Shown piece after piece: positions 10,272 to 32,391 of a DNA stretch of 45,480 bases. Under the pieces are notes generated by a model, which saw only the letters and a program-made list of their open reading frames with translations, ran no database searches and had not been told where the DNA came from. Made by a program: the position numbers and the translations under genes. Numbering within the stretch: position 1 is the first letter of the stretch; each line of letters begins with the position of its first letter. The DNA is from a virus, in IMG/VR virus record IMGVR_UViG_3300031999_000049, positions 1-45,480 of that record. One strand, written 5' to 3'.

Positions 10272-10281
10272 GAGGTACTTT

Positions 10282-13161
10282 ATGTTTGGTGATACGCTGA
10301 ATACGATGAAGACTTTGAAAGGTTCGAAAGTTTTAAGAGAAGATGTAGTGATTAAGAAGAAATCAACGCTGATGGCTATCTTGGAAGCTGCGCAAGCCGA
10401 GGTAAAGATAGGCGGTGGTACGCAAGACATCGCTAGCGATAAAGACTTGGACAGAGACGTTAAAGTGCCTGAGAAAACCGTTGTCGACAAAGCTCCTGAA
10501 GTTAAAGGTGAACAGATGGACGGAGGCAAAATAGAGGGGCAAGACACGGTTAAGAAGGAAGGCAAAGAGAACGAGAAGAACGAAGCCAAAGTCAATGAAG
10601 GCAAGAAGGAAGACGAAGCAGCCGCAGCGGTAACTAAGTCAGCTGTGTCCTTATTGCGCAAGATACATAAAGCAGAGAACGTAGAGGCTCTTGAGGACAT
10701 AATGAATACGCTTGAGAAGTCCGCTACGAAAGGTAGCATCAGTTCAGAGCAAGAGACAAGACTGAAAGCAGCTTGGGCTCGTAGGAAAGAGGCTTTGAAA
10801 GACAATCCGAAAGCCCCAGCGGATGAACCGACGCAGGCTGAAGAGGATGCTATAGAGAAAGAAGAGCCTAAGGATGACACAGATGAGTCTTTTGCTAACA
10901 AGAGTATGTCACGCCCATTGAATGAATCGACAAGTATGGATGACATGATTAAGAAGTTAAGAGATGTCACCTTGTCAGTCAGTGAATCGGACAAAGTTGA
11001 CACTGACCAGAATCCGGGCAAAGAGGGTGGTGTTAAGACTGAAGGTGCTCCTGCGAAAGACCCGGATGCTAAGCCTAAGCAAGATGTTAAGAGCTCTGAT
11101 GCGCCTGTTAAGCAGGATACAGGGGCTCTCGACGTTGACAAGGAAGTTAAGGACACCGACCCCAAGCTGAACAAAGAGAATGTTAGCAATGAGGGAGAGC
11201 CGGGATTACAAGGCGGTAAGGCTCCTGTAGTGAAACAGAACACATCGGCCCTTGATGGCAACTCCGCTGACGTAAACTTATCTAAGGACGGGGTTAAGAA
11301 AGAAGAGAACATCGACAAGCTTGATGACAAGGGCAAAGAGACCGTTAAGCAGAACGTGGGTGCTTTGACTGATAGCAAAGAATCGAAAGTAAATGAGATG
11401 GCCATGATTAAGATTGACAATGAAGGACTAATGCAACTGGTAAGAAAAGCTCAAAAATATTTAAAGCGGTTAGAGGCAAGCACCCAGACAAGTGACAAAG
11501 AGTTAAAAAAGATTTATGATAAGGACGTTGAAGTTGTAAAGACTGCTTTAACATTTTTAGAGAAAGGTGATTTGAAAGGCGCCCAAAGTTTTTTGGAAAA
11601 GAATAGTCGTACTGATAGTCGCGGAAGAGACAGAGCTAGAGGTGCGGACTGGGCCGATATTTTATTGAGTGACTTGGAAGACTTAGTGAATAGTGCTTAT
11701 GAAAAGGCAATACAGCCGTATCAGAGTAAACTTGACAAATATTCGAAGACACTCGATGACCCTCGGACTGGACGTAAGTACGATACTGAAGAATCGAAAG
11801 TCCCTGACGTTACTAGTGACAGCATAGAGGCTATTACGAAGGCGCTATATGAAATGGTTGATGCAGACAAGGAAGAGAAAGCTGAGAAGAAAGATGGTAG
11901 AGAGTATTTTGGTATGTCAGGAAAGGAAACTCTTTACGCTGCTATTGACAAAGGCGAAGGAGCCGGTGAGGGGGAGGAAGGAGTAGAAGGCACTGAAGTA
12001 AAGAACGTGAAGTCCATAAAAAGTATAACTGTGTACGATTCAATCGGTAATGAAGTGGCTAAGCTACAGAACGATGGCGAGATGCCGAATGCTAAGTTTA
12101 TATCCTTGGCCGCAGAGAATGCTAAGCTGGATTCGGTTGGCTTTCAGATTCTGCAGGGTTTAGGCATATTGAATACAGAGGAAGAAGAGCAGCCGGTTGA
12201 CCAGCCTGCTATGAAAGAGAAAGGTGAAGAAGAAGGCGCTACTTCCGATGTAACCAATGACGAGAAGGAAGCTTCGAAGGCAACGGCAGCTGATCAGGAT
12301 GCGGAGCCTGTTGAACAGCATGAGAGCAAGAAAGGTAAGGCAGTTAAAGGGAAGATGAATGAAGGTACGAAAGAGTTAAAAACTGGAGAAGATGTAGCAC
12401 AGTATGTTGTTGATAATTTAAAGTTCCCTTCTGACAGCGAAAATGGCTATGTAGTGTATAAAGGAGTAAAGTATTCTGACATAAAGAGTAGAGGGCACTC
12501 CACAGGCGAAGTAGCATTAAAGTTAGGAAAGGCGTTGGGAATTGACATGAGTAAAGCTGTGGATTTGAAGTATATGAAAAAGAACCTACTTGAATCCACA
12601 GTGAATGAAGGCATAGCTGAGAATACACAGATAGCTTTGTCTCATGCCATCACCAGCCTTGACAATTCAAGTAAGTTCGTGGCTCAAGGATTGAAAGCTG
12701 AAGGCGTTATGAAGAAGGACCAGCTTGAATTAGCTATTAAAGAACTTGGAGAAGCTGAAGCGCAAATCAAGATGGTGCTAGGAACGAACGCACAGCCTGT
12801 GGCATTACCGCAGGAAGCAGCCCCAACGTTAGAACCGACCGCGGCAGCAGAGCCCGCTCTAGAGGCTCCTGCGGAAGGTGGAGAAGGAACTGAGGGGTAT
12901 GAATCAAGAATGAATGAGGACAAAGGTGCACCAATTTATTTGCGGGATTTGAATCAGAGGCTCCAGAGTACATACACAGAAGACATAGAGAAATTAAGAG
13001 CAAAGATGGGGAATATAGAAGATAAAGACATAATTGTAGGTTATTTTATAGAGCCAATTCAGGTAATGGAATCTAAAATTCCTGATGTTACTGCAGACGA
13101 CATAGACACCATAACGAAGAAGCTGTACGAGAAGTATATTAAGAAGACGGAGGCAAAGTAA
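10282..13161 (+). CDS. Head-core polyprotein 1 with ESKVNE-type linkers
   Basis: This 959-residue, very acidic Lys/Glu-rich protein starts after AGGAGG. Residues about 60-370 are low complexity. Distinct folded-looking segments follow: a helical one (about 370-480), an SDI-type repeat at about 504-527 that recurs at the extreme C-terminus, a segment with ITVYDSIGNEVAKLQ (about 580), one with ENGYVVYKGVKYSDIKSRG (about 714), and a helical one (about 780-835). The segments are separated by linkers with EAKVNE (101), ESKVNE (367), KMNEG (about 691), ESTVNE (771) and ESRMNE (874). These end in hydrophobic-X-Glu like T4 gp21 cleavage sites. In T4 the same interval encodes core proteins cut during maturation. 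I infer a processed internal head protein; an unprocessed scaffold is the alternative. Confidence 0.6.
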   Translation: MFGDTLNTMKTLKGSKVLREDVVIKKKSTLMAILEAAQAEVKIGGGTQDIASDKDLDRDVKVPEKTVVDKAPEVKGEQMDGGKIEGQDTVKKEGKENEKNEAKVNEGKKEDEAAAAVTKSAVSLLRKIHKAENVEALEDIMNTLEKSATKGSISSEQETRLKAAWARRKEALKDNPKAPADEPTQAEEDAIEKEEPKDDTDESFANKSMSRPLNESTSMDDMIKKLRDVTLSVSESDKVDTDQNPGKEGGVKTEGAPAKDPDAKPKQDVKSSDAPVKQDTGALDVDKEVKDTDPKLNKENVSNEGEPGLQGGKAPVVKQNTSALDGNSADVNLSKDGVKKEENIDKLDDKGKETVKQNVGALTDSKESKVNEMAMIKIDNEGLMQLVRKAQKYLKRLEASTQTSDKELKKIYDKDVEVVKTALTFLEKGDLKGAQSFLEKNSRTDSRGRDRARGADWADILLSDLEDLVNSAYEKAIQPYQSKLDKYSKTLDDPRTGRKYDTEESKVPDVTSDSIEAITKALYEMVDADKEEKAEKKDGREYFGMSGKETLYAAIDKGEGAGEGEEGVEGTEVKNVKSIKSITVYDSIGNEVAKLQNDGEMPNAKFISLAAENAKLDSVGFQILQGLGILNTEEEEQPVDQPAMKEKGEEEGATSDVTNDEKEASKATAADQDAEPVEQHESKKGKAVKGKMNEGTKELKTGEDVAQYVVDNLKFPSDSENGYVVYKGVKYSDIKSRGHSTGEVALKLGKALGIDMSKAVDLKYMKKNLLESTVNEGIAENTQIALSHAITSLDNSSKFVAQGLKAEGVMKKDQLELAIKELGEAEAQIKMVLGTNAQPVALPQEAAPTLEPTAAAEPALEAPAEGGEGTEGYESRMNEDKGAPIYLRDLNQRLQSTYTEDIEKLRAKMGNIEDKDIIVGYFIEPIQVMESKIPDVTADDIDTITKKLYEKYIKKTEAK
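10582..12918 (+). repeat. ESKVNE linker set in polyprotein 1
   Basis: The clearest copies are EAKVNE 10582-10599, ESKVNE 11380-11397, ESTVNE 12592-12609 and ESRMNE 12901-12918. Each lies at a boundary between unlike segments. A separate internal duplication begins at 11791 and 13069 (ESKVPDVTSDSIEAITK and ESKIPDVTADDIDTITK). Confidence 0.8.
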
Positions 13162-13165
13162 CGCA

Positions 13166-13357
13166 ATGAAGATTCGCTTTAAGTGTGGCTGTCTCTTTGT
13201 GCATTATCATGACGATAGTGGAAAAGAGGATGCGTCATTAAAGGTTTGCCCTTCGCATGAGATGGTTCCGAATACGTATAGCTTTTTGGGCATTGAAGAA
13301 GTCTCATTGGATAGGGATGGAGGACATGAAGAGAGGCGACATAGTGAGAGAGCATAA
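13166..13357 (+). CDS. Small Cys/His protein
   Basis: This 63-residue ORF begins four bases after the preceding stop, with GGAGG twelve bases upstream. CGC near residue 8 and CPSH near residue 28 could form a zinc site, with HYHDD between them. The C-terminal third is charged (EERRHSERA) and lies against the start of the next gene. Function unknown. The length and motif make it a reasonable but unproven gene. Confidence 0.5.
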   Translation: MKIRFKCGCLFVHYHDDSGKEDASLKVCPSHEMVPNTYSFLGIEEVSLDRDGGHEERRHSERA

Positions 13358-13370
13358 GAGGAGGTTTCGA

Positions 13371-13559
13371 ATGGCTGCAGAAGTAAAAGTTGGACCGAAG
13401 AAAAAGAACGTGGCAGTGATTGTTGCGATTGTGGTAATTGGTCTTGCTATAGCGGGCTTAATCTTTGTACGTACTACGAAGAAAGCCCCGAAAGTGGAAG
13501 AGGTTAGTAACACGACCGTGACGAGTGTTGTAGCAACAGCGCCCGCAGTAAAGAAATAG
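13371..13559 (+). CDS. Single-span membrane protein
   Basis: I chose ATG 13371 because GAGGAGG lies just upstream; longer in-frame starts (13326, 13257) overlap the previous gene and lack good spacing. The 62-residue product has a short Lys-rich head (KVGPKKKN), one transmembrane helix (about 14-34; VAVIVAIVVIGLAIAGLIFV), then a Thr/Val/Ala-rich tail. By positive-inside charge the N-terminus is probably cytoplasmic. It lies directly before the tubulin-like GTPase, 11 bases apart, so a membrane partner of that filament is one idea. A small holin-like or virion membrane protein is another. Confidence 0.6.
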   Translation: MAAEVKVGPKKKNVAVIVAIVVIGLAIAGLIFVRTTKKAPKVEEVSNTTVTSVVATAPAVKK

Positions 13560-13570
13560 GAGAATAAACC

Positions 13571-14653
13571 ATGAGTGCTGATGTACCAAAGCTACCTTTA
13601 GAAGAATTCGAAATACCGGCGACTGACTCTAAGTCTGAAGCGGGGCTTAAGAATGAGTATAAGGGTTCTCTTGACTTTGGTATAATCGGTAGTGGTCAGG
13701 CTGGTGGAAAGATAGCTAAGAGCTTCTATGGCGTAGGTTATAAGAAGGTCTTAGCTATCAACACCGCCGAAGCAGACTTGAATCCGCTAGAGCTTCCGAA
13801 AGAGCAGAAGATGCGCATTGGCAATCTGCAGGGCTCTGGAAAGGATATGAATGTTGGAAGGAAGGCAACCGAGGAAGCGTATCAGCATATCTTTGACGCT
13901 GTTAAGAAGAGCTTTGGCAAGGTAGATAAGATAATCATCACCCTTGGCTTCGGTGGTGGGACAGGCGCTGGAAGCTTACAGACACTAATAAGCATATCGC
14001 AGGAGTACTTACGCTTGCTAGGCAATCCGGACTATATGACCGATGTGCTGGTAGTAGGAGCATTGCCTTCAGCGGGTGAGCTAAGGAGTGATAGGATAAG
14101 ACAGAATACCGAGGCAGCAAAGAAGCAGATTTATGCGCTTACAGATGCTGGGAAGGTAGGCCCAATTATCCTAATGGACAATAGCAAGATAGAGCAGCTT
14201 TATAGAGGCATACCGCCTAATAAGTATTGGCCAGCGATAAATGATTCGATAAGCATGCTGTTTCAGATATTCAATAACCTAAGCACACAGCAGAGCAACT
14301 ATCACTCGTTTGATGCGACAGATTATCGAGTACTTTTAAGTCAGCCCGGCATAGCGGTAATGGGTGTTACGAGAGTGCCGGAGAAAGATTTAATGGTAGC
14401 GCAGGCCTTGCAGGATAACTTTAAGAAGACGCTATTGAATAGTGCGATAGACTTTAAGACAGCGAAAGCTGCTGCTTGTGTATTCGTTGTGGATGAGAAG
14501 CTAATGGGAACGATAGCGATGGATGTGTTCAATTATGGTTTCGATACAATCGCTAATCTTATTGGTGGCGCTACAGTGTATCGAGGCTTGTATGATAATA
14601 AGGGCAATGGCATAAGGGCATATACGCTGATATCAGGTTGTAAAGCAATATAG
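13571..14653 (+). CDS. Tubulin/FtsZ-superfamily GTPase
   Basis: The 360-residue product has the diagnostic GTP-binding loops in order. The T1 loop is GIIGSGQAGGKI (about 37-48). The T3-like loop is INTAEADL. The tubulin signature is LGFGGGTGAGSL (about 134-145). The T6-like segment is RQNTEAAKKQ. A T7 catalytic loop SFDATDYRVLL has two Asp residues spaced as in FtsZ (D-X-X-D), followed by a GIAVMG strand as in FtsZ. This implies a polymerising GTPase that hydrolyses GTP at subunit interfaces. Phage tubulins (PhuZ of phiKZ-like phages) centre the phage nucleus and move capsids. This one is placed between head-core and protease genes and lacks an obvious acidic tail. It is full length, with AGGAG upstream. 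Confidence 0.85.
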   Translation: MSADVPKLPLEEFEIPATDSKSEAGLKNEYKGSLDFGIIGSGQAGGKIAKSFYGVGYKKVLAINTAEADLNPLELPKEQKMRIGNLQGSGKDMNVGRKATEEAYQHIFDAVKKSFGKVDKIIITLGFGGGTGAGSLQTLISISQEYLRLLGNPDYMTDVLVVGALPSAGELRSDRIRQNTEAAKKQIYALTDAGKVGPIILMDNSKIEQLYRGIPPNKYWPAINDSISMLFQIFNNLSTQQSNYHSFDATDYRVLLSQPGIAVMGVTRVPEKDLMVAQALQDNFKKTLLNSAIDFKTAKAAACVFVVDEKLMGTIAMDVFNYGFDTIANLIGGATVYRGLYDNKGNGIRAYTLISGCKAI

Positions 14654-14666
14654 GAGATAAGAAGAG

Positions 14667-15041
14667 ATGGACAAGACGATATTTGGTTATGAAGTTGCGA
14701 TAGATTTGATAAATTGCAATGAGAGGATAAAGATTGAAGAAGAGCTACATAGATACGCGAAGGAACTTTGTGAGGTAATTGACATGAAGCCATTTGGTAA
14801 GTGCCAGACGCCTTACTTTGGTGAGAAGAGTGAGATAACGAAAGGCTATTCATTATTGCAGTTCGTGGAGACAAGTTCGATAACCGGACACTTTAGTGAG
14901 CACTATAAGAGCGCGCATATAAATATTTTTAGCTGTAAGAAGTTTGATATGGAGAGAGCGACTTTATTTACTAAGAAGTTTTTTGGAGGCAAACTAATTA
15001 CAGAAAATTGCCTCGTTCGATATTGCACAGATAATAATTGA
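14667..15041 (+). CDS. speD: SpeD-like pyruvoyl decarboxylase homologue
   Basis: The 124-residue product matches the small bacterial S-adenosylmethionine decarboxylase (SpeD) fold. The start FGYEVAIDLINC resembles the SpeD N-terminus. VETSSITGHF aligns with the ESHISIHT segment, keeping the Ser that self-cleaves to form the pyruvoyl group and the later His. INIFSC aligns with the IFTC segment that carries the catalytic Cys. The Glu before the cleavage Ser is replaced by Thr. Canonical enzymes make decarboxylated AdoMet for spermidine. Some small SpeD homologues are known to have become arginine or ornithine decarboxylases, so the substrate is uncertain. Its place inside the head operon suggests polyamine supply for DNA packaging, an inference. 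Confidence 0.7.
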   Translation: MDKTIFGYEVAIDLINCNERIKIEEELHRYAKELCEVIDMKPFGKCQTPYFGEKSEITKGYSLLQFVETSSITGHFSEHYKSAHINIFSCKKFDMERATLFTKKFFGGKLITENCLVRYCTDNN

Positions 15042-15053
15042 CGGAGGTTTATA

Positions 15054-18000
15054 ATGGGCAAACCTATTCAGATGTCTTTAAATGAAAGAGAGATAGTTAA
15101 GTATCAGAAGCTTAACGAGAGTGAGTCAGGCAAATTGTTCGATGGCGTACTCTGTCGTGTTAAGTATCCGATATATTGGTTCGGACAGCTGAATAGGAAC
15201 AATCGTATGTATGAAGAGCAGATAATGGATAAGCTCGAAGGCGACAAGGACATCAAAGAGGCCATTGAGAAACGTTCGAGCTTCATGCAGGAAGAGCATC
15301 CTTTGCTTGATAATAAGACCAGAACAGCCCATATCGCTGGTGTTCTTGTAGGTTTTACGCGTGAGTCAATTGACGGTAAGAAAGCCGGCTTTGCTGTGAT
15401 GGATGTGCTTGATACTCCGATGGGAAGGATAGTCGACACATTGATTAAGGCTAATTGTGGTATAGGCACATCAACGAGAGCCGATGGTGCTGTTGAAGAA
15501 TGCATGGATGAAGGAACGCAGAAGAGGTTCCATAAGGTCATCACTGAGAGCTATAAGTTCTTTGCTTTAGACTTCACCGCTGAACCGAGTACGTATGGCT
15601 CATATCCGCAAGACGTTCAGAGAAGTGTTGTTGACATAATCAAAGAGAGTGTAGGCAATGGTAAGTTGGATAGAGAGACAGGCCTTAGACTACTTGAAAG
15701 CTTGAATGCCCCTGAAGCTACTAGCCTGAATGAGACAATCAAGAGCTGCTGCGGCAAATGCCCCGAAGCTTGCAATAAGATATTGAAAGGCACCTGCGAT
15801 TGCAGTGAAGAGAAGGAAGAAGATAAATGCAAAGGATGTGGGGCTAAGCTAGACAAAGGTGCATGTTTAAAGTGTGATTACGACAATGAAGGAAAGATGA
15901 AAGAGTCCAAAGTGAATGAAGAAGAGAAAAAAGATATAGATGCTAAGTTTTTGTATTCAATCGCTCACAAGCCGGAATACAATAAAGGTACGTGGTGGTA
16001 TAACCTTACGACAGGAGAGATACAAGTTGGTAAAGACTCTGCAAGTGCACATAATGACGAGGAGTTTAAAGACATAGCACATAAGCCGGGTTGGATAAAC
16101 GGAAGAGTTTTTAGTTGGAATAACAAAAATATTTTGATAGTCTATTATCCGAAAGATAACGTGACTAGTACGATGCTTTTAGATTTAGACAAAAAATTAG
16201 AGAATGAGCTTGGATTAAAGATTGACTATGCTATAAATCAGAAAGGGGAAGACATATCTCACTTGTTGGAATCGCTAATTTCAAGAACAAATATAAAAGT
16301 GCGCGAAGATGCAGAGCAGTCTGTGCAAGTTCAAAAAATAGTCAAGGACATAGTGAGTAATTATAAAGAGATTACTGGGCAAGAGATTAAAGACGTGATT
16401 AGCAAGTCAGGAAAGTTCACTGACCGTATTGTCGATGCTTGGGAAGACGCAAGAGATTACATCGAGGAGAAATACAATATAACAGATAGTTCGCTATTGG
16501 ACATAATCGCTAGAGATTTAGACACTGCGTTGACAGCACGCATTAAGAACGAGTCCAAAGTGAACGAAGAGCAAGGGACTATAAGCTTCGATGGCAAAGC
16601 TTATAAGTGGATGAATGAATCCAAAGTGAATGAAGAAGACATCGTAAAACCGTCGCTCTCAGCGGGTGAAAAAGTTAAGACTCCGAAAGGTGTCGGTATA
16701 GTCGTATTTGTAGGACGATTTGATTCCTATGTAAAAGTTGATGGTAAGCAATATGAGTTTAAGAATAAAGAGTTGATTAAAGAATCCAAAGCAAATGAAG
16801 ACATCAATATCAAAGTAGGTGACATGGTTGAAGTGCTTGATAGCGGTGCTGTAGCCGCTCCAGCCTCGAAGGTAACGAATACGAAAGAGACCTTGAATGC
16901 TAATGGCACAAAGACAGTACTTGTCCAGACCGAGAAGGGTGGAGAGACTTGGTTTGATTCGACAAAGGTTAAGCTGAATAAGTTTAATGAGAGTATTGGA
17001 GAGTCTAAGCTTAATGAAGAACGCTATAAAGAAATAGCTAGGGATTTGAATAGTGCGTTGCAAAGGATTGACATGGCTTCAGCGGCCGCACCTCGTCTAA
17101 GAGGATTGAGAGATGAGCTTGGAAAAGCTTTTGCTGATATAGAAGGTTATGTGCATAAAGCTTTGAGTAGGTTAGCTGATGCTGAGGAATACGTAGAGGA
17201 AAAGAATGAATCTAAGCTTAATGAAGAGGACGAAGACAGAGCCCTTATGAATAAGCTATTCAAAGACGCTCATGCTTACTTTGATAAAATGAAGATACAG
17301 CCCGTTGAAGACGACATTATGGATTACGTAATTCAGGGATATGCTGAAGCAAAAGGAACGAATTACGATAAGGCTGCATCGTTCGTCGAAAGGTATTGCT
17401 CTTATGAAGATGAGGAAGAATGCGCTGAGAGCTTTAAGAAAGGCGACAAGCTTGAGATGAATGTACATGGCAAGACTGTCAAAGCTGTGGCTCTTGACGA
17501 CTCTCATAAGATAGGGCAGGTTGAAGTGGTTAAGATAGCCCAGGAAGGGAATAAAGAGCCGGTGACCGTTATGGTTGGTAGGGTTAAGAAGCTTGGAGAG
17601 AGTGCATTGAATGAAGCTAAGTTCCTGCTTTGGGATAAGGCCGCAATGAAGGTGTTAACAAAGAAGAACGGAAGCGTTCTTGAATTTAGTTCAACGATGG
17701 AAGCTAGAAAGCATGTTGAGGATTTGCTTGGCGAGCTTGAGAGATATGAGATACTCGCTAGAACGAATACCTCTCCAGTACAGAGGGAGGCGGCTATGGT
17801 AGGTTCTAGAGAAACAAAATTGACTGAAGAGGAAGGACGCTATAAGAACAATCCCGCAGGAGATAAAGAGTTTGTTAAGAAGACCGGAGGGAGGTTTAGT
17901 GAGCCTGACGATAAGAACAATCCCGACACAGTTAAGGGAAATGAGAGCAAAGAGGCTAAAGTGAATGAGGCGGAAAAGAAAGATAGGATTGATGAGTTAT

Positions 18001-19082
18001 GGAAGTTAGTTGATAATTTTTCACATGGGAATCCGTCAAGCTTAGTTGATTTAACTAGATTAAGTGACTTTGTTGAAGTAGCGAGAAAGAAAGGATTTAA
18101 AGACAAAGAGATATGCCTTGCATTAACTCACTATTTTAATAGAGATTTACTTAGAGGGGCCCAGCTTGGGTTAGAGTCTTGCCCTGAAGAATCTCGACTT
18201 CATGAGGGCTTTAACTTCGACAAAGACCTTGACAAGTTTATGAGCATAATCAAAGGCCTTATCAGTGAAGATGAAGTTAAGTCGTTATCTGAATCCAAGA
18301 GCATTAGCGAAGGAGTCTCTGACCTATTAGCTAAACGCAAGCATGCTCAAGCCATTATTGAAGCTGAAAGAGATAAGGCCATAGAGATAGTTACTTTGTA
18401 TGAAACAATCATCGGGGCTCAAGAGAAAGCGCTTAAAGAGGCCAAAAATGAAGTGAACTATGAAGAGTTGGCAAAAGATTTACAGCCTAAGACCAAAGAG
18501 GTATTCGTAAAGTTCATGAACGCTCGTTGGCCTGATAGTGGCCCAAAGTACGATATTGGCTATGCAGAGACTTGGCTAGAAAGATTTAAGCGTGGAGAGG
18601 AATGGGAGTTCTCAGATAGCCAAAGTAGAGACGTGTTAAAAGGCTTAGGTGATTACGCTAAGAAAGAAGAGGGAGTAAGAGAATCAGAAAAGAAAGCTCT
18701 TATCACTAAGGTGCATGAAGAGCTAAACAAAGTCTTTAGCACTAAGTTAGCTGAACAGAAGGAAAGCTTTGAGAAGCAAACCAAAGCCCTTAATGAATCG
18801 CATGCAAATGAAATCTTTCAACGCACTATCGTTGATAGAAAAATAGAGAAGTCTGGGTTGACTTTACCTGAGCCTGTCGTAGCACTACTACGAGAAGCCA
18901 AAAGCGAGGAGCAGGTTGATTCAATCATTGGTCGCTATCGTCTGAACTTGAATGAGGCTTTGCTGCACTCCGGCAAGCCACAAGGAATGACAGTAACGGT
19001 CAACGAACCAGGCAAACCGACAGACTCGGTTATGCAGGCGTCTCTTGACGAGACAAAGAAAACGTTGAAATTTATGAAATAG
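15054..19082 (+). CDS. Prohead protease-scaffold polyprotein with inserted modules (polyprotein 2)
   Basis: This protein has 1342 residues. About 1-205 match a T4 gp21-type prohead protease: YPIYWFGQLNRNNRMYEE, then MQEEHPLLDNKTRTAH with the likely catalytic His, then CGIGTSTRADG with a candidate catalytic Ser. A Cys-rich zinc segment (about 228-280) follows. Then modules appear between ESKVNE-like linkers at residues 284, 500, 522, 577, 650, 719, 849 and 967, including an SH3/KOW-like domain (about 530-575; KVKTPKGVGIVVFV). The C-terminal ~320 residues are coiled-coil, scaffold-like, with an inserted domain (about 1140-1205; FVKFMNARWPDSG and YAETWLERFKRG). T4 encodes protease and scaffold as separate proteins of about 210 and 270 residues, so about 800 residues are extra. 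It directly precedes the major capsid gene. Confidence 0.75.
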   Translation: MGKPIQMSLNEREIVKYQKLNESESGKLFDGVLCRVKYPIYWFGQLNRNNRMYEEQIMDKLEGDKDIKEAIEKRSSFMQEEHPLLDNKTRTAHIAGVLVGFTRESIDGKKAGFAVMDVLDTPMGRIVDTLIKANCGIGTSTRADGAVEECMDEGTQKRFHKVITESYKFFALDFTAEPSTYGSYPQDVQRSVVDIIKESVGNGKLDRETGLRLLESLNAPEATSLNETIKSCCGKCPEACNKILKGTCDCSEEKEEDKCKGCGAKLDKGACLKCDYDNEGKMKESKVNEEEKKDIDAKFLYSIAHKPEYNKGTWWYNLTTGEIQVGKDSASAHNDEEFKDIAHKPGWINGRVFSWNNKNILIVYYPKDNVTSTMLLDLDKKLENELGLKIDYAINQKGEDISHLLESLISRTNIKVREDAEQSVQVQKIVKDIVSNYKEITGQEIKDVISKSGKFTDRIVDAWEDARDYIEEKYNITDSSLLDIIARDLDTALTARIKNESKVNEEQGTISFDGKAYKWMNESKVNEEDIVKPSLSAGEKVKTPKGVGIVVFVGRFDSYVKVDGKQYEFKNKELIKESKANEDINIKVGDMVEVLDSGAVAAPASKVTNTKETLNANGTKTVLVQTEKGGETWFDSTKVKLNKFNESIGESKLNEERYKEIARDLNSALQRIDMASAAAPRLRGLRDELGKAFADIEGYVHKALSRLADAEEYVEEKNESKLNEEDEDRALMNKLFKDAHAYFDKMKIQPVEDDIMDYVIQGYAEAKGTNYDKAASFVERYCSYEDEEECAESFKKGDKLEMNVHGKTVKAVALDDSHKIGQVEVVKIAQEGNKEPVTVMVGRVKKLGESALNEAKFLLWDKAAMKVLTKKNGSVLEFSSTMEARKHVEDLLGELERYEILARTNTSPVQREAAMVGSRETKLTEEEGRYKNNPAGDKEFVKKTGGRFSEPDDKNNPDTVKGNESKEAKVNEAEKKDRIDELWKLVDNFSHGNPSSLVDLTRLSDFVEVARKKGFKDKEICLALTHYFNRDLLRGAQLGLESCPEESRLHEGFNFDKDLDKFMSIIKGLISEDEVKSLSESKSISEGVSDLLAKRKHAQAIIEAERDKAIEIVTLYETIIGAQEKALKEAKNEVNYEELAKDLQPKTKEVFVKFMNARWPDSGPKYDIGYAETWLERFKRGEEWEFSDSQSRDVLKGLGDYAKKEEGVRESEKKALITKVHEELNKVFSTKLAEQKESFEKQTKALNESHANEIFQRTIVDRKIEKSGLTLPEPVVALLREAKSEEQVDSIIGRYRLNLNEALLHSGKPQGMTVTVNEPGKPTDSVMQASLDETKKTLKFMK
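15903..17969 (+). repeat. ESKVNE linker set in polyprotein 2
   Basis: Eight copies: 15903-15920, 16551-16568 and 16617-16634 (ESKVNE), 16782-16799 (ESKANE), 17001-17018 and 17208-17225 (ESKLNE), 17598-17615 (ESALNE) and 17952-17969 (EAKVNE). Most are preceded by Asn or Gly and followed by Glu. Copies use different synonymous codons, so conservation is at the protein level. Confidence 0.9.
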
Positions 19083-19092
19083 GAGTATTATC

Positions 19093-22000: not shown

Positions 22001-22678
22001 TCTATGAAAATAGAGGAACAAGTTGTAAAGTTGAATTACACTGTGTTTTCTGCGATTAACTTGCAGAAGATTCATGGAATGGTTTTGGCCGATGAAGGCA
22101 TGAAGTTCTGCACGCAGGAGATTAAGTTTGCGATTGACCAAATCGTATTAAAGTACGCTTTGGCAGCTGCGCAGAGCTCCGGTGGTGCGAACTCTGGCGT
22201 TTCCATTGGTGCTTTTAGCACGGTTATGGATTCTGGTCAAGAATGGCTATGGAGAATCAACGAGTTTAAACGCTACGTCAGTAAGGCGTCTATGGCAATC
22301 TTTTCGAAGACCTTACGTGCACAGGGTAACGTTATCGTTGGTGGCGTGAATGTTTGTTCCTTGATTGAGCAGTTGCAGGACTTCAAAGGCGCTGCAGGTC
22401 TTGGTACGACACCGCCTTCCGGCCCTCACGTATTTGGTACATTAGGCAACCGTATGGTAATCTGCAATCCGTTCTATGATGCTAGCCAGTATGTGGTTCT
22501 GCATCGCGGTAGCAATTACTTGTACGCAGGTTTGGTGTATGCACCTTACGTGCCTCTGTATGCTACAGACCCTGTGACTCTTGCAGACTTGACAACTCAG
22601 CGTGGCTTTATGAGTCAGGCAGCTGTTAAGACTGTGAATGCCGGAATGTTTTGTTGGGGCACAATTTCTGGATATTAG
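19093..22678 (+). CDS. Major capsid protein, three exons split by two group I introns
   Basis: The exons are predicted as 19093-19256, 20353-21029 and 22023-22678. Together they give 1497 bases, 498 residues plus stop, in frame across both junctions, which read KANI-AQVCDNLFDFYV and DAMVFP-F-VKLNYTVFSA. The protein has features of T4 gp23-like capsid proteins: an N-terminal helical start, VCDNLFDFYVIGKMGQGLS, the QAIDRPQAQIYYMNVKAS segment that follows a run of small residues, and a C-terminal KIHGMVLADE helix region. Expression follows AGGAG at 19081. It is immediately downstream of the protease-scaffold gene and ends 12 bases before a strong terminator. ATGs at 20246 and 21923 only extend exons 2 and 3 into the introns and are not real starts. 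Confidence 0.85.
19257..20352 (+). mobile_element. Group I intron 1 in the capsid gene
   Basis: P1 is a nine-pair helix between the exon end and intron start (19253-19261) and AAAAGGTGT (19268-19276), with a U-G pair at the splice site after T19256. P2 is AGCAGG-GTAA-CCTGCT (19280-19295). Core elements are P AATTCAGGGAAC (19311-19322), Q AATCCTGAGCCAAGC (20107-20121), R GTGCACAGACTAGA (20182-20195) and S AAGATATAGTC (20313-20323). P pairs with Q (P4) and R with S (P7). A P8-like hairpin (about 20292-20310) and P9 (20328-20343) follow, and the terminal G is 20352. It carries an endonuclease ORF that extends into the core. Confidence 0.9.
19342..20253 (+). CDS. Intron-1 homing endonuclease, PD-(D/E)XK type
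   Basis: The 303-residue product begins with CECGCG. It then has three copies of a motif of the form G-(R/K)-T-Y-E-(Q/E)-(I/F)-Y-G-(K/E)-E-(R/K)-A at about 30, 55 and 112, probably DNA-binding repeats. The C-terminal nuclease part has SSWEERLLLQL (about 154), YLPDYQL (about 193) and IIEVK (about 210), a PD-(D/E)XK site. It is the same architecture as the gene at 1109. It lies between intron elements P and R, and its last 70 codons run through Q and R, so translation and intron folding compete. Spread of intron 1 into intronless capsid genes is its likely role. Confidence 0.8.
   Translation: MKTCECGCGNQVNVGRRFVLGHSNFVLRRGRTYEQIYGKERAATVIVNCSGHVSSKKGKTYEEFYGEEKASKINQKIITSRFDRFPTEERTKMASENAKIGASHIKGKTLEQFHGVEKGRKLRSGRRDAMIYRLENGTSYLGTKRGYAFGVRFDSSWEERLLLQLNKFDLAGQGFSIERCHYRIEYFYGKLRVYLPDYQLKQFGHVVAIIEVKCEQRLLTVEKELAPYKMRALKRFCQDMLITPCLYTEQHFPNANPEPSSVNELIQLTHKRFAEYVAEKVHRLESEDNQTNNLSVAQEVPNV
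21030..22022 (+). mobile_element. Group I intron 2 in the capsid gene
   Basis: P1 pairs CCGTTA (21026-21031) with TAGCGG (21040-21045), putting a U-G pair at the splice site after T21029. P2 is ACAAGC-GAGA-GCTTGT (21049-21064). Core elements are P AATTGAGGGAAA (21081-21092), Q AATCCTCAGCCAAGC (21828-21842), R GTTCAGAGACTAGC (21861-21874) and S GTGATATAGTCC (21984-21995). The P/Q pair differs from intron 1 at matching positions (TCAGG/CCTGA against TGAGG/CCTCA), a compensatory change. P9 is CCTCTAT-GAAA-ATAGAGG (21999-22016, with an extra A). The terminal G is 22022. Confidence 0.88.
21099..21926 (+). CDS. Intron-2 homing endonuclease, Vsr-like
   Basis: This 275-residue protein has a basic N-terminal ~140 residues with repeated short helices (SPENRNAQ, ASPEYRARR, HTQETKEKQ) like NUMOD-type DNA-binding repeats. 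The C-terminal domain resembles very-short-patch-repair (Vsr/EDxHD) endonucleases: NWEKIVDDLL, then PDWKSNKGNMLIELFGERWH with Asp, Glu and the WH pair, then GYETLVIWGREL. It is a different nuclease fold from that of intron 1. The ORF ends beyond Q and R, overlapping the ribozyme core. It probably promotes homing of intron 2. Confidence 0.78.
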   Translation: MFKKTDESLAKMKASKARYWSSPENRNAQSLRRKAYFAKEENRLLTSIATKKGMANPEFKKKFAIAITKSHASPEYRARRSVISKQVFQREDVQKKHKVACKNRKREPHTQETKEKQSISAIKTWQDSEIREKRMFSWSKSRKMNNWEKIVDDLLQAVLPSAYRYTGNFSESTYGLYPDWKSNKGNMLIELFGERWHKPQDEQDRANCFKQFGYETLVIWGRELKDIETLKSKILLWHTKHHDNPQPSPVQSGKVQRLAEDDTSSLMTASREKSI

Positions 22679-22690
22679 ACTCAACATGGT

Positions 22691-22724: not shown

Positions 22725-22740
22725 ATTTTGAGGAAGTTTT

Positions 22741-24270: not shown

Positions 24271-24278
24271 TTGCAAAG

Positions 24279-24902
24279 ATGGATGGAATAGCACTTTACC
24301 CCAGGTTGAGACAGCTAGATGAGATGAGCATCCCTAAGATGGAAGCAGGGCAGGCTTCTGTTGGAAGGCTGTTCAAAGACTTTGACGGTAAGGTCGGGGG
24401 CGTAGCTACCGCTGGCGGGATAAAGCTTAGAGATGAATCGAAAGGTGTTTGGAAGTTCAAAGTTGCTTCTGGTACGCAAGGAAAAAGAGATGTCTATGAC
24501 CTGATTATTTACTGGAGTGATTTGCCAAAGCAGATAGCCAAGTTTGGTAGAGATAAGAGAGTATGGAAAGATGATGGCACAGGAATAGATTTATCAAAGT
24601 TAGCACAAGCGATATTCGATGAGGCTGACATAAAGGTGCAGCACAATTGTCCGGCTTGGCTATATTGGGGCTTTAAGTATATGGCAACAAAGAATAAAAT
24701 GGCTTATGCTGATTTTGAAAGACGTCCGCCAGATATTCGCAATCCTCAACGCTTAGGTGTTGGTTGCAAGCATTTTCAGTTGTGGTTAGAAAGAATTCCG
24801 TTCTATACTGGAACGCTCGCAGGACATATAGGACGTTATTATCGTAGAGAAGTTCAACAGGCTGAAAGGGGCATATTAAAACAGAAGGTGGAAAATGGAT
24901 GA
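24279..24902 (+). CDS. Head-region protein with SWIM-like Cys/His motif
   Basis: In this 207-residue protein, residues about 45-100 look like a beta-rich part (WKFKVASGTQGKRDVYDLIIYWSD). Near residues 124-170 there is NCPAWLYWGFKYMATK followed by a PPDIRNP turn and VGCKHFQLWL, a pattern like a degenerate SWIM zinc finger (C then C-X-H). The first of the two N-terminal Cys expected in SWIM domains is not present. It follows structured element A and is probably a virion or connector protein by position. It overlaps the next gene by eight bases. Confidence 0.45.
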   Translation: MDGIALYPRLRQLDEMSIPKMEAGQASVGRLFKDFDGKVGGVATAGGIKLRDESKGVWKFKVASGTQGKRDVYDLIIYWSDLPKQIAKFGRDKRVWKDDGTGIDLSKLAQAIFDEADIKVQHNCPAWLYWGFKYMATKNKMAYADFERRPPDIRNPQRLGVGCKHFQLWLERIPFYTGTLAGHIGRYYRREVQQAERGILKQKVENG

Positions 24903-25599
24903 TTTATATAACAGGCTGAAAGAAGAAACAACGAGTGGTTCGATAGCCTATGCGAGAGGCGAGATGAAGCAAGCTAATACAGCTGCTAAAGAGTTTGCGA
25001 AAGACCATAGCGGCGAAATGAATAAAGAGACTGAAGAGCAGATTAAGAAAAAGAAAGCATTGCAAGAAGCTGTTGATAATGACGTGCTTACTTCAAAGAA
25101 AGGAATAATTGATGCGCTAAAGAAAGTCATATCGGAACAGCCATTACCGTCTGCGAGAGAGATGGTAGATAATTTTAGATGCTCTGATTTAACGCCAAAG
25201 AATACTTTGATAAGAGTGCTACACGCTGATGAAGATTTAAGCAGACTTGAAAAGCTATTGCCTAATGACCTTGGTGCTTTAGAGATAATGGAAGGAGCTA
25301 TAACGGATAGAACGCCTTTAAGTAAGTTTGCAACGTTTAGACCGTTTTTGTATTTGTATGGAGCACGATTGGTAACAGCTCCGTACGGTCGCTATGGCGG
25401 AAAGATAGTTTATATCGGAGCGATTGGTTTAGGGTATGTAGGGAAAGAGCTTTTATATGTTGAAGATTTAGGATTAGTTGAAGCAATACAGAAGAATATT
25501 TCTGATGTAAAATCGATAAGTAGGAATGTATATCCAAGAGGGTCGATGTTTAAGCCTGGTGTAATCAAGATGATAAAAGAACTTAGCATGAAGGAGTAA
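24895..25599 (+). CDS. Unknown head-region protein
   Basis: The 234-residue product has a charged helical N-terminal third (about 1-85). Its start, MDDLYNRLKEET, resembles that of the gene at 29790 (MSDLYNKLRQRTLNE), suggesting a shared targeting or core-binding sequence. The C-terminal half is more hydrophobic (LYLYGARLVTAPYGRYGGK, then IVYIGAIGLGYVGKE). The start is preceded by AGAAGGTGG. No family recognised. Context points to a head or neck role. Confidence 0.45.
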   Translation: MDDLYNRLKEETTSGSIAYARGEMKQANTAAKEFAKDHSGEMNKETEEQIKKKKALQEAVDNDVLTSKKGIIDALKKVISEQPLPSAREMVDNFRCSDLTPKNTLIRVLHADEDLSRLEKLLPNDLGALEIMEGAITDRTPLSKFATFRPFLYLYGARLVTAPYGRYGGKIVYIGAIGLGYVGKELLYVEDLGLVEAIQKNISDVKSISRNVYPRGSMFKPGVIKMIKELSMKE

Positions 25600-25600
25600 T

Positions 25601-26023
25601 ATGGATTTAAAAGAATTGAATGAAGCGAGAGATTTATATTCGTATAAATTGCTGTTGAATATGCTTGGTGAGTTTACTGAGAGAAATCCTGGAACAGCTG
25701 TAAGCAAAATGTATAAGCAAGTATTGGCAGGCGGGATTAGCTGTATGCCGAAGGATAAACAGGCTTTAGTGATAATTCAGTACGTTCTTAGCGAGTTAGG
25801 AACTCCGAAGGCTTTGAATGATTTGATGAATACGAACTTCTCTGAATTGCCAATAACGAATAGGCCTTTGTATGCTACTAAAGATAAAAAGAATATCGTG
25901 GCATTTTGGTGCAAAGGTGGTAAGCTTTATAGTCGTGTGATAGACCTTCTTAGCTTTGAAGGTAAGACAGGTAAGTGGTCTGACGAAAAATGTGGAAATG
26001 TGACTCTGACTGAAAAGGAGTAA
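25601..26023 (+). CDS. Unknown protein upstream of polyprotein 3
   Basis: The 140-residue product begins MDLKELNEARD; its LNE tripeptide fits the hydrophobic-X-Glu pattern of the protease sites described here, so the first seven residues might be removed. The rest appears to be a compact helical domain (about 10-85) and a short beta region (NIVAFWCKGGKLYSR). It has AAGGAG upstream and lies two bases after the preceding gene. Function unknown. Confidence 0.45.
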   Translation: MDLKELNEARDLYSYKLLLNMLGEFTERNPGTAVSKMYKQVLAGGISCMPKDKQALVIIQYVLSELGTPKALNDLMNTNFSELPITNRPLYATKDKKNIVAFWCKGGKLYSRVIDLLSFEGKTGKWSDEKCGNVTLTEKE

Positions 26024-26027
26024 ATAT

Positions 26028-29000
26028 ATGGCTGAGTTTAGAATTAAAGATAACTTTTTAGTTGGCATGCTTGAGAAAGCACGTCAGGCTGACTTTAGTG
26101 GCATAGTCTATGGCCACAAAGTTAATGAAGAGACGAAAAAGACCTTTGGTTATAGACCTTATAAAGGTGGAGCAGGGCCATCAGAAGAGCAGGTTAGAAA
26201 GAGGAATGAAGCTTTGCTAAAGGCTCTCCAAGCTAAAGGTATTAAGGCAAGTTTAAAAATGATTGATATAGGAGCTGATGAAGAGATTCAAACTGTTGAG
26301 GCGAATGGACGACAGGCCGGGTTTGATAGGTGGGGTTATAACAGTGATGACAGCGACACTTTAGACCAAGCTAGCTTTGAAGAGGCTTTAGCTTACTTAA
26401 TGGGAAAAAATGAGTCGAAGGTTAATGAAGAAACCATAGACGAGTTAGCAGACCTTGGCGGAATAGCTGAGGCTCTTGCGAAAGAAAACGATATGTCAGC
26501 TGAGAAAATCAAAGAGGGTGCACAGGTCGAGTTTAAAGAGCACAAAGAGTCGATTGGCGGTGACATCAAGATAGCGGCTAAGATAGCTATTGACCATATG
26601 AAGGAAGACCCTGAGTACTACGCTAAGCTTGCTAAGATGGAAGCTGGTAAGAACGCGGAAGGGTCTGCAACGCCTTCAGTGGTAGAGAGCAAAGCGCATG
26701 AAAGCATTAAAAAGATTTCAGTAGAAGAAGTTAAGAAGCTATTTAAAAAGGTAGATGCTAAGTATGCCGAGCTTTTAGCGAATACTTGTGGTTCAAAAGA
26801 AGAGATTATTGAAAAAGGCAAAAGTGCCGGTTTAGAAATAAGTGAATCTAAAGTAAATGAAGACCGTGATAAAGAGTTTATTGCCATATATCAAGAGTTA
26901 CTTGCTAAAGGGTTAGACAAAAATGCAGCATTTGGTATGGCAGTGTTACGAATAGCAAAGAAGTATAACATCACAGAATTTTCTAAAGATGAGCCTAAAA
27001 AGATGACCGAATCAAAGAATGAACCAGATTACGCTAAGCAAAATGGCAATTACATCTACGTTCTATCAACTGATGAAGATTCTCATGAGAACGTGTGGAA
27101 GCGCAATAGAAATTCCTTTAAGAAAGATGGCAAGTGGGTAGCAGGCACCGTTGTCGAGATAGCTAACGACCGTGGACGAGTAGTATACATTTTGCGGGCT
27201 GACGGTTCGCTCCGGAAAGCTCACTACGTCGAGAAAGACAAGAATTTTCCAATTGATGAACCCAGCAATGAGAGCAAAGAAAACGACATGTTATCAAGTG
27301 GCTTTTCCGTAGGACAGAAAGTTAAGACGCCAAAAGGTGTGGGTGTTGTTACTAAGCCTACATTTGATGGCTATAATAAGGACGTAGTTTCGGTTAATTT
27401 ACCTGACGGTAATACTCGCTTTGATGTTAAGGATGTTGAGATTATTGAATCCGCAGTGAATGAAGCCTTCGACATCAAAGTAGGTGATGGTGAATGTGCT
27501 ATAAATGAGATGACAGGAGAACAGTGGGATGGAGAGGTAGAAAAAATAAATAAACTGCCCAAAGAGCAACAAGAGAACGCATGGGAAGATTTGTATAAGC
27601 GCTTGTATCAAAGCACTAAAGCCGCAATGGAGAAGAAGGGGTTAGACCCAAAGACGGCAAGACCTAAAGAAAAGAACGAATCAGAAGTGAATGAAGAAGC
27701 GATGGTTTTTAATCCGTACGAGAGAAAGGACTCTGTTCAAGCTCTCGCGGCTATACGTAGTGAGGCTGAAATACCGAATAATGTTAGACCTACATTATCG
27801 AAGCATCTTACGTTCTCAGAAGGAGCGCATAATAAGTATCATTATTTCGCGTTGTTTAATGTTGGTGATGGACATTGGATAGCTGCAAATGCTTATGCTC
27901 GCATAGGCTATACTCCACAGGTGGATGTGTTCTATTCTGGAAATGATGAGAATGTAGCAAAAGAGGCTTATCAGAAGAAGCTCGAAGGTAAGTTAAGCAA
28001 GGGCTATGAGGTCGATGAGTCAACGCTTAATGAAAAAATAGTGAAGGCAGGCAGCAAGTGGCAGGTTCAATCGCACAAAGGAAAGAACCTTGGCACTTTC
28101 GATACGAAGGAAGAAGCTAAGAAAAGATTAGGGCAGGTAGAGTTCTTTAAGCATAAGAATGAATCCAAAGTGAACGAAGCTTCGGCACATATCTTTAAGA
28201 TTGGTGAGAAAGTAGTAATGCAGAGTGGGTCTCCTATTAGCGCAAGATTTAGAGGAATAGGCGAAGTTATAAAGGTCACTCCGTTGCCTAATGTTTCGGG
28301 TGGGTATGAGATAGAAGTAAAGGATAGGAATGGAGAGATTATAAAGACGCATGATAACTTTATTAAGTTGTCATCTATGAATGAAGATGTAGCACCGACA
28401 GGTCAGAATCCGAATAAGTATCAGTCCATTGCTCGTGGTATTGCTGATGAGAACGAAGCTAAGAAAATCGCTATGGAAAAGAAAGGAACTGTTCAGAAGG
28501 ACGACCAAGACAAAGAAGGCAAGCGCTTTATGGTTGTGGTGAAAGAGAGTACGAATGAAGAAGAAAAGAAACCGGTAATAGCTTTATTCCCTAAAGCTAT
28601 TGATTTTCGTTATATTCAAGGCAAGGCTAGCTATAAGCAAGGAACTGAAGAGTATAGACTGTTAGATGGTATGAACGAAGAGCTTTGGGATAAGTACCTT
28701 AATGTAATGGCAGGCAGCGGAACAACCGTTGAGTACGATAGCGTTAACGATGTATTCAATGTTGAGAATATGACAGGAGTTGGTGAGTCTAAGATAAACG
28801 AAGTTAGCTTTCCGCTATGGGCAATTATAGATAGGAATGCTGAGCATGGACAGGAGTACCTTAAAGACAAAGATGGTCAGCTCTTGACTTTTTATTCGAA
28901 GGCAGAAGCTCGCAAGCATATTGTTGATGTACTTGGTCCTGAAAAAGGTCGCTATCAGATTATGCCGATGAGTGATGCAGCTAGCCAAGTGGAAGCAAGA

Positions 29001-29780
29001 CCGGTAGGCGAATCTAAAGTAAATGAAGAGAAGCATGAGGAAGTAAAGGTATTCGAGCTTCCTAAATGTGATTTTTGCGCTCAAGATGGTAAAGACAAAG
29101 AAGCCATGTACGATGGAAAGACGAACATTGGTCCTTGGGCTAATATGTGTAAAGAGCACTTTCAGCAGTATGGCACAGGTTTGGGGTTAGGAAAAGGCCA
29201 GAAGCTTATTAAAGATGCAACTGCAAAGAATGAGGGTGTTCTTGATAAGCATTATGGGTCACGTGATGAGAAAGATTTAATACAAGCCAAGGCTAGACTA
29301 AAGAGCTTGGAAGGAACACATGAGTTCGCTTCTGAGAAAGAGCACCTTAGAAAGGTAATCGGAGAGCTAGAGCAGAAGACCAAGCTAGCTGGCCCAAGTG
29401 TGCATAGGTCAACTGGTCCTATGGTTGAAAAGTTTCTTTTAGCTGGAAGCCTTATTGATAAGCTAAAAGTGGAAGGTATAAATGAACAGGAAGAAAAGTT
29501 CCTACAAGAGTTTGAAGCAGAATTCAGCCACTTGACTGAAGATGCTAAGAAGGCTTTAGAACTTTCAGCCACTAAGTTGAAAGAGGAAGCAGCTAAAATG
29601 GTTAGCGCGCCTTATGCGGTAGGTAATGTTAAGAAAGGTGATTCGGTTAGGATTGAAAACGTTGACAGCCAGTCAGGACATTTGTCCTTTGATGTAGTAG
29701 AATCAGCGACTGGGAAAGTGGTTGGAAGATTATCGTTTGATAGCTCGGCAGAGGCGAAGGAGGCCGGCTGGCAAGTTTAA
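26028..29780 (+). CDS. Head polyprotein 3 with ESKVNE-type linkers
   Basis: This 1250-residue protein is built as a chain of small domains. The linkers ESKVNE, ESAVNE, ESEVNE, ESTLNE and ESKINE lie at residues 129, 273, 474, 551, 664, 712, 920 and 995. Modules include a helical one like DUF5661 (about 170-215; IDHMKEDPEYYAKLAKME), an SH3/KOW-like one (about 425-470; KVKTPKGVGVVTKP) related to one in polyprotein 2, a WQVQSHKGKNLGTFDTKEEA module (about 675-710), a FPLWAI module (about 926-990) also related to polyprotein 2, and a zinc module with CDFC and CKEHF (about 1010-1065). Several resemble small proteins that I have seen encoded alone in other phages and bacteria. I infer processing into internal head proteins. 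Confidence 0.62.
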   Translation: MAEFRIKDNFLVGMLEKARQADFSGIVYGHKVNEETKKTFGYRPYKGGAGPSEEQVRKRNEALLKALQAKGIKASLKMIDIGADEEIQTVEANGRQAGFDRWGYNSDDSDTLDQASFEEALAYLMGKNESKVNEETIDELADLGGIAEALAKENDMSAEKIKEGAQVEFKEHKESIGGDIKIAAKIAIDHMKEDPEYYAKLAKMEAGKNAEGSATPSVVESKAHESIKKISVEEVKKLFKKVDAKYAELLANTCGSKEEIIEKGKSAGLEISESKVNEDRDKEFIAIYQELLAKGLDKNAAFGMAVLRIAKKYNITEFSKDEPKKMTESKNEPDYAKQNGNYIYVLSTDEDSHENVWKRNRNSFKKDGKWVAGTVVEIANDRGRVVYILRADGSLRKAHYVEKDKNFPIDEPSNESKENDMLSSGFSVGQKVKTPKGVGVVTKPTFDGYNKDVVSVNLPDGNTRFDVKDVEIIESAVNEAFDIKVGDGECAINEMTGEQWDGEVEKINKLPKEQQENAWEDLYKRLYQSTKAAMEKKGLDPKTARPKEKNESEVNEEAMVFNPYERKDSVQALAAIRSEAEIPNNVRPTLSKHLTFSEGAHNKYHYFALFNVGDGHWIAANAYARIGYTPQVDVFYSGNDENVAKEAYQKKLEGKLSKGYEVDESTLNEKIVKAGSKWQVQSHKGKNLGTFDTKEEAKKRLGQVEFFKHKNESKVNEASAHIFKIGEKVVMQSGSPISARFRGIGEVIKVTPLPNVSGGYEIEVKDRNGEIIKTHDNFIKLSSMNEDVAPTGQNPNKYQSIARGIADENEAKKIAMEKKGTVQKDDQDKEGKRFMVVVKESTNEEEKKPVIALFPKAIDFRYIQGKASYKQGTEEYRLLDGMNEELWDKYLNVMAGSGTTVEYDSVNDVFNVENMTGVGESKINEVSFPLWAIIDRNAEHGQEYLKDKDGQLLTFYSKAEARKHIVDVLGPEKGRYQIMPMSDAASQVEARPVGESKVNEEKHEEVKVFELPKCDFCAQDGKDKEAMYDGKTNIGPWANMCKEHFQQYGTGLGLGKGQKLIKDATAKNEGVLDKHYGSRDEKDLIQAKARLKSLEGTHEFASEKEHLRKVIGELEQKTKLAGPSVHRSTGPMVEKFLLAGSLIDKLKVEGINEQEEKFLQEFEAEFSHLTEDAKKALELSATKLKEEAAKMVSAPYAVGNVKKGDSVRIENVDSQSGHLSFDVVESATGKVVGRLSFDSSAEAKEAGWQV
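26412..29027 (+). repeat. ESKVNE linker set in polyprotein 3
   Basis: Copies are at 26412-26429, 26844-26861, 28161-28178 and 29010-29027 (ESKVNE), 27447-27464 (ESAVNE), 27678-27695 (ESEVNE), 28017-28034 (ESTLNE) and 28785-28802 (ESKINE). Shorter relatives (HKVNE near 26115, SSMNED near 28373, EGINEQ near 29476) also end in hydrophobic-X-Glu. Confidence 0.9.
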
Positions 29781-32387: not shown

Positions 32388-32391
32388 CATA

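Follow-up and report, generated by a model that had tools for sequence, protein, structure and literature searches.

Candidate prohead-core polyproteins with swappable domains joined by a protease-site-like linker in an uncultivated T4-like phage

Introduction

Phage cargo proteins are usually recognized gene by gene. In phage T4, the internal proteins IPI, IPII and IPIII as well as Alt each have their own gene and one N-terminal targeting leader of about 10 to 20 residues. Such capsid-targeting leaders are short N-terminal propeptides cleaved off by the prohead protease gp21 (PMC7411985), which cuts after L/I-X-E (PMC9026906) and is reported to strip nine N-terminal residues off itself (PMC9958956). 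When Asp stood at the cut site of a T4 leader, processing stopped and targeting was retained (PMC9026906). Among these internal proteins, IPI inhibits a restriction enzyme of the host (PMC3012670, PMC9958956). The T4 core proteins gp22, gp67, and gp68 are cut at several sites (PMC9026906) and yield peptides that exit the head. In the giant phages SPN3US and phiKZ, distant relatives of gp21 (gp245 and gp175) cleave numerous inner head proteins after x-X-E, at several sites per protein (PMC10052503, PMC5694885); the cuts remove propeptides from single proteins, and no chain of independent cargo domains is described in the available portions of these two sources. Polyvalent proteins carry many unlike small domains per polypeptide in shuffled architectures and are predicted to be injected (PMC5512222). 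For some of them, processing by metallopeptidase domains, rather than cutting of repeated sites by a protease of the gp21 type, has been proposed, and no array of linkers like the one described below is reported (PMC5512222).

Here, we analyzed a 45,480-base linear virus fragment from IMG/VR (the window), in which an earlier note, made from the sequence alone, had recognized three giant head proteins that share the linker ESKVNE. The note knew of no described phage polyprotein system with this design. This was overstated, as the multiply cut T4 gp22, gp67, and gp68 (PMC9026906), the multiply cut propeptides of giant phages (PMC5694885), and polyvalent proteins (PMC5512222) are all known. What stands is the specific design, namely swappable cassettes joined by ESKVNE, some of them with a gp21-type protease on one side and its scaffold domain on the other. 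In searches of the open-access literature, we found no polyprotein of linker-joined swappable cassettes cut by a gp21-type protease.

Results and Discussion

Gene content of the head cassette

The features to which we give positions below are encoded on the + strand. The head cassette of the window starts with a T4 gp20-like portal protein (6587-8437; Pfam Portal_T4, E 5e-19) and includes a gp23-like major capsid protein split by introns (exon matches at 20246-21073 and 21923-22678; Pfam Gp23, E 3e-6 and 1e-20), the two proteins by which a T4-type head was recognized. The three giant ORFs are as the earlier note had given them, encoding p10282 (10282-13161, 959 aa), p15054 (15054-19082, 1342 aa), and p26028 (26028-29780, 1250 aa). 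The linker, which had been assigned to these three proteins, is indeed present in each of them, and it also occurs in a fourth, p8434 (8434-9600), composed of a DUF5662 domain (E 3e-24), a module resembling one of p15054, the linker, and a zinc-ribbon-like end. The domains had been called otherwise unlike, which holds only in part: p26028 contains counterparts of two p15054 domains, and p8434 has a weak counterpart of one.

The genes for p8434, p10282, and p15054 are bracketed by those for the portal and the gp23-like capsid protein. In T4, core and protease genes occupy this interval, and p10282, between the portal and protease genes, has the position of a T4 core gene. The proposal that these are head-core proteins is therefore supported by location for p10282 and p15054. 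The third protein, p26028, is encoded outside the core block, downstream of the neck genes and past genes with weak connector matches. A tblastn search with p10282 against phage records returned no match.

A gp21-type protease and a scaffold-like end in one protein

As had been claimed, p15054 begins with a gp21-type prohead protease domain (15147-15734), which is followed by SLNE. The PHROG_207 profile (head maturation protease) aligns with residues 32-227 at E 5e-17, and a profile built from five relatives identifies the crystal structure of T4 gp21 (chain 5jbl) with E 1.1e-9. All five relatives share His82, Ser140, and Asp173, which were assigned as the catalytic triad by alignment; a His-Ser-Asp triad is reported for gp21 relatives (PMC5694885).

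At its other end, the last ~100 residues of p15054 are similar to the domain found C-terminal to the coiled coil in the protease ORFs of relatives. The scaffold-like domain itself comprises residues 1241-1318 (18774-19007; hmmsearch over 30 sequences, E 4e-6); it was found with a shorter profile, while a scaffold profile of 260 residues missed p15054. The same two ends, protease and scaffold-like, make up a 533-aa protein in the close relative L013, and ESKVNE-type linkers are absent from L013/G002, so this protease lineage can do without the linker device. Likewise, in Thornevirus SP-15 and LIS04 and in vB_SagM-GXN1, the same protease domain and a long coiled coil share one ORF located, like p15054, before the capsid gene, but these fusions measure about 560 aa and have neither linkers nor inserted modules. 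Since relatives have the same two ends and no array, the p15054 modules sit inside a protease-scaffold protein.

Three independent lines place a predicted hydrophobic-X-Glu cleavage site in this lineage. First, the N-terminal MSLNE of p15054 (15072-15086) is a candidate self-cleavage site, and the proteases of relatives start with MLLNE, MLLSE, MLLTE, and MLLTE. Second, a maturation site is predicted in exon 2 of the gp23-like protein, at LSE/ATTSDA (20411-20419; the slash marks the predicted cut), with matching sites in related capsid proteins (LNE/ATQPSD, MNE/ATQP, LTE/A, and LLE/T). Third, [VILMA]NE is enriched 4 to 7 times in the three giant proteins, with 6, 16, and 13 occurrences in p10282, p15054, and p26028 where 1.4, 2.2, and 2.2 are expected. 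The looser hydrophobic-X-E rule as a whole is hardly enriched in these proteins, and thus it would not by itself single out the linker sites. The predicted linker cut, V/L/I/A-N-E, fits the L/I-X-E rule of T4. On sequence, p15054 has the makings of a polyprotein with a cognate protease, as repeated sites of one consensus lie between independent domains and the protease is present in cis. Several observations count against cutting: most linkers have Val at P3 where the T4 rule has Leu or Ile, some linkers end in Asp, and the conserved ESK..E signature is longer than a short protease rule requires.

Distribution and variants of the linker

At the sequence level, the linker and its restriction to the four proteins are clear. 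With a threshold of at least 5/6 identity to ESKVNE, we counted 3, 7, and 7 copies in p10282, p15054, and p26028, as compared with 0.013, 0.04, and 0.043 in shuffles of the same proteins; at 4/6 or better, there were 6, 9, and 12 copies (0.6-0.9 in shuffles). We found 22 copies of the strict form E[SA]x[VILAM][ND]E, including a single one in p8434, a total that bears out the earlier estimate of at least 20 close copies. A linker PSSM (~0.055 false matches per 1000 residues) detected no true copy in the other listed ORFs of the window, tail genes included. The sole lookalike in the window was a weak one, ESTVME, in the ORF at 31719-32387.

The single copy of p8434 is ESKLDE (9415-9432). In p10282, the linkers are EAKVNE (10582-10599), ESKVNE (11380-11397), ESTVNE (12592-12609), and ESRMNE (12901-12918), along with the Asp-ending variants ESKVPD (11791-11808) and ESKIPD (13069-13086). 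The modules of p15054 are joined by ESKVNE (15903-15920, 16551-16568, and 16617-16634), ESKANE (16782-16799), ESKLNE (17001-17018 and 17208-17225), ESALNE (17598-17615), and EAKVNE (17952-17969), and ESHANE is found at 18795-18812. Four exact copies are present in p26028 (26412-26429, 26844-26861, 28161-28178, and 29010-29027), together with ESAVNE (27447-27464), ESEVNE (27678-27695), ESTLNE (28017-28034), ESKINE (28785-28802), the shorter ESKNE (27009-27023) and ESTNE (28545-28559), and a third Asp-ending variant, ESKEND (27270-27287). These Asp-ending linkers are predicted to stay whole and may be uncut joints, because Asp at this position blocked the processing of a T4 leader (PMC9026906).

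Two of these features could also indicate that the main role of the linker is in core binding or capsid targeting, each module having its own signal, and that at many copies cutting is of secondary importance or does not take place: its conservation reaches upstream of the hydrophobic-X-Glu rule, into ESK, and the T4 leader with Asp was still targeted (PMC9026906). We consider this very improbable, given that a single signal suffices for one chain fused to the protease and scaffold. Moreover, T4 targeting depends on leader residues 4 and 7, upstream of the site, and a comparison by eye revealed nothing in the linkers that corresponds to the aromatic residues of the leader.

The linker is also kept in the distant relatives L001/G001 and L015/G003. 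Its eight exact copies in the window are encoded by seven DNA versions, indicating that it is mostly conserved as protein; recently copied DNA was accordingly rejected as its sole cause. However, codon identity among these copies is 3.14 of 6 as compared with 2.63 expected from codon usage, and the rare Ser codon TCC (6% background) is used in four of the eight. At the DNA level, the shared codons and the TCC enrichment show some common descent of the copies through duplication or exchange.

Leader-like counterparts in other T4-like phages

Scanning IMG/VR for the patterns NESKVNEE and KNESKVNE led us to unrelated T4-like marine phages. Four of them (L098, L101, L105, and L117) have rows of small genes that begin with MKHVKLFEQFVNE/A, MKHIKLFEQYINE/S, and similar sequences and that lie near the gene for a gp21-type protease (L119). 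In L140, neighboring genes begin with MKTFWELRDEIKNESKVNE/IS and MKTFWELRDEIKEKEDVSE/IS. Judging by sequence, starts of the MKHVKLFEQFVNE/A and MKTFWELRDEIKNESKVNE/IS type look like T4 capsid-targeting leaders, suggesting that VNE closes a probable targeting leader elsewhere. The probable leaders in these other phages end in FVNE/A, and one ends in NESKVNE/I. A protein of L101 carries a second, internal NESKVNE and thereby looks like a two-module precursor. Five other records with NESKVNEE matches (L095, L100, L110, L139, and L146) were set aside as single chance-like occurrences. The protease N-terminus, the capsid protein, and the probable leaders of other phages all show the same V/L-N-E rule, in keeping with the earlier description of the linker as protease-site-like.

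Proposed processing and its implications

The explanation that we favor, and hold to be likely, is that p10282, p15054, and p26028, together with p8434, are prohead-core polyproteins cut at their linkers, some pieces being injected. Most of the head-core cargo of this phage would then probably be encoded as small swappable domains in three long chains, which are cut inside the head. Small domains strung on ESKVNE-type linkers would be carried into the prohead as core-protein fusions, an entry suggested by gene position and by the fusions themselves, those of p15054 entering between the protease and the scaffold-like C-terminus. Once the prohead is complete, the gp21-type protease would cut behind the Glu of the V/L/I/A-N-E linker end, a step to which the conservation of the sites points. 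Cutting would free about 20-25 small proteins, and the number of inter-linker pieces supports this count, which the earlier note had also given. By analogy with the T4 internal proteins, the scaffold part would be degraded and at least some of the freed pieces would be kept inside the head and pass into the host together with the DNA, as IPI-III and Alt do. The linker would double as a joint for cassette exchange, so that cargo could be swapped without new targeting signals.

This scheme resembles that of IPI-III and Alt in its gp21-type protease and L/I-X-E-like sites (PMC9026906, PMC3012670), in the joining of variable small head proteins to a constant processing signal, and in the gp23-type capsid protein and gp20-type portal. 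The T4 internal proteins each have a gene and one N-terminal leader, whereas here many domains share a chain, and the sites are internal and repeated. The system would thus work like T4 internal-protein packaging, in a fused form, yet it is not that system as defined, because the cargo shares one ORF in place of separate genes each with a leader.

A broader reading, to which we give an even chance, is that the chains represent a swappable arsenal of ~20 small host-directed proteins in which one site is both release signal and recombination joint, a general platform in an uncultivated T4-like lineage. The modules would presumably act on the host. If true, many small counter-defense or takeover proteins would be hidden as unnamed domains in giant 'hypothetical' head proteins, from which they could be computationally excised at a defined joint. 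A T4-type head would gain new cargo through in-frame cassette exchange, as an insertion between sites would add cargo without a new gene, promoter, or targeting leader. It would also be a natural modular protein-packaging system.

Modules between the linkers and their exchange

Named families among the modules are DUF5661, WGR, DUF5662, and weak zinc ribbons. Searched as isolated modules, two domains of p26028 matched Pfam DUF5661 (26502-26645, E 1e-11) and WGR (27696-28016, 22.9 bits with a cut-off of 22). A Cys-rich module of the same protein (29040-29210; phrog_23287) has a standalone homologue in gp103 of Arthrobacter phage Ranunculus (68% identity, 57 aa), and a second module has one in the N-terminal part of the prohead protease of Yersinia phage P400, a siphovirus; both homologues start near the linker end. 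Standalone relatives of inter-linker modules, for which the earlier note had proposed a search, thus exist. Residues 521-590 of p15054 and 414-487 of p26028 are one module, as are residues 847-926 and 918-1001 of the same two proteins, in both cases within linkers, while residues 270-337 of p8434 weakly resemble p15054 348-415 (E 0.001).

These data bear on whether the cut modules are disposable core or scaffold mass that leaves the head without injection. The modules share a chain with protease and scaffold parts, the first half of p10282 is acidic and of low complexity, and T4 gp22, gp67, and gp68 are cut into fragments that mostly exit the head (PMC9026906). Nevertheless, we regard disposal as unlikely, since the modules resemble functional folded domains (DUF5661, WGR, zinc-type), have standalone homologues in unrelated phages, and are exchanged like variable cargo, unlike conserved scaffold. 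Compared with these T4 core proteins, the system in the window is alike in its position beside the protease gene, in several predicted cuts per protein, and in the scaffold-like end, but its pieces are distinct exchangeable domains.

The exchange is best seen in L092, a 9.4-kb sequence from a different metagenome with a near-identical p26028. For ~330 bases, its DNA is 100% identical to the window; the identity ends with GAATCA in the linker at 27009, the left breakpoint of a module swap. Past this linker, four modules of the window stand opposite two unrelated modules of L092, and the sequences become homologous again at the next module common to both, which follows ESTLNE (the linker at 28017-28034, the right edge of the swap) or ESINE. 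Near 28120, 28660, and 28960, identity changes off linkers; in the replacement by unrelated domains, the left edge does coincide with a linker. In the distant relatives G001 (7440-9104) and G003 (30832-32892), the VQEL and Cys-rich modules occur in opposite order, with ESKVNE ahead of the VQEL module in one relative and ESINE ahead of it in the other. Judged from these sequences, the inter-linker domains are cassettes.

With several unlike domains per polypeptide and a variable architecture of swapped and permuted modules, the window proteins fit the loose definition of polyvalent proteins. Pfam searches of the window proteins revealed none of the enzymatic or nucleic-acid-targeting domains catalogued for that class (such as ParB, ART, MPTase, or PBECR), and most modules matched nothing. 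The chains could be intact internal proteins of the polyvalent type, the linker serving as a flexible tether and recombination joint that the head protease leaves uncut. Polyvalent proteins are multi-domain and predicted to be injected, and the N4 vRNAP stays uncut (PMC5512222); the linkers also show DNA kinship (TCC in four of eight copies, against the 6% background), and module swaps break at them. We judge it improbable all the same, as a mere tether has no need of hydrophobic-X-Glu, and VNE also closes capsid-targeting leaders in other T4-like phages. In addition, Glu is retained at most homologous module boundaries while the rest of the linker drifts, the two exceptions being ESKEND and KHFEG, in which Glu is shifted by one. 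AlphaFold2 models had a mean pLDDT of 39.5 for residues 230-1059 of p15054 (single sequence) and of 32.5 for residues 1-1075 of p26028 (two sequences), too low to tell where the linkers lie relative to folds.

A scan of genome contigs with one module gave no match. The search with a KOW-like module retrieved only the C-terminus of an IscB-like protein, with weak similarity. Lastly, L092 carries an extra DUF5419-like domain after its Cys-rich module.

Short leaders, and a recurrent motif of head-core proteins

The marine T4-like phage contigs L105 (13.5 kb) and L117 (20 kb) both carry rows of approximately eight adjoining small genes whose products begin with near-identical leaders, MKHVKLFEQF[VI][NSG]E. 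Judging from their sequences, these rows represent a putative internal-protein locus, in which no two mature parts are alike. Short leaders also open several small proteins near the polyproteins of the window (24279-24902, 24895-25599, 25601-26023 and 29790-30182), some of these leaders closing with LNE or LDE, as in MSDLYNKLRQRTLNE, MDLKELNE and MDGIALYPRLRQLDE. These are possibly further capsid-targeting leaders, the short N-terminal propeptides removed by gp21 protease.

Polyprotein 1 (11791-11808 and 13069-13086) shares a second repeated motif with the core proteins of two relatives, L014 (ORF 10001-12538, residues 359 and 617) and L001 (ORF 8084-9949, residue 101). It reads [SG]K[VI]PD, continues into an acidic stretch and closes with a short helix-like segment (I/K..L.E).

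Possible enzyme-like modules and neighboring genes

The KVKTPKGVG module, found at 27270-27464 and 16617-16799, weakly resembles (33% identity) an IscB-like RRXRR/HNH protein from another contig (L147, 2024-3235) in that protein's C-terminal region. In the relative L017, the modular head-core protein (5735-9970) contains the Cys motif CPHRKRGKPCGYCYV inside a large domain, which had no Pfam match and is possibly a radical-SAM-like enzyme. Between the genes of polyprotein 1 and the protease-bearing polyprotein (p15054), the head-core block of the window also houses two others: one (13571-14653) encodes a tubulin/FtsZ-like GTPase (PF00091, E 2e-9), the other (14667-15041) an S-adenosylmethionine decarboxylase (PF02675, E 2e-12).

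The gp23-like capsid gene (19093-22678) is interrupted by two insertions, each with an endonuclease-like ORF (19342-20253 and 21099-21926, respectively), and the second includes a group I intron (21664-22016; RF00028, 51.5 bits). The capsid gene of L001 (13044-16176) appears to be likewise split.
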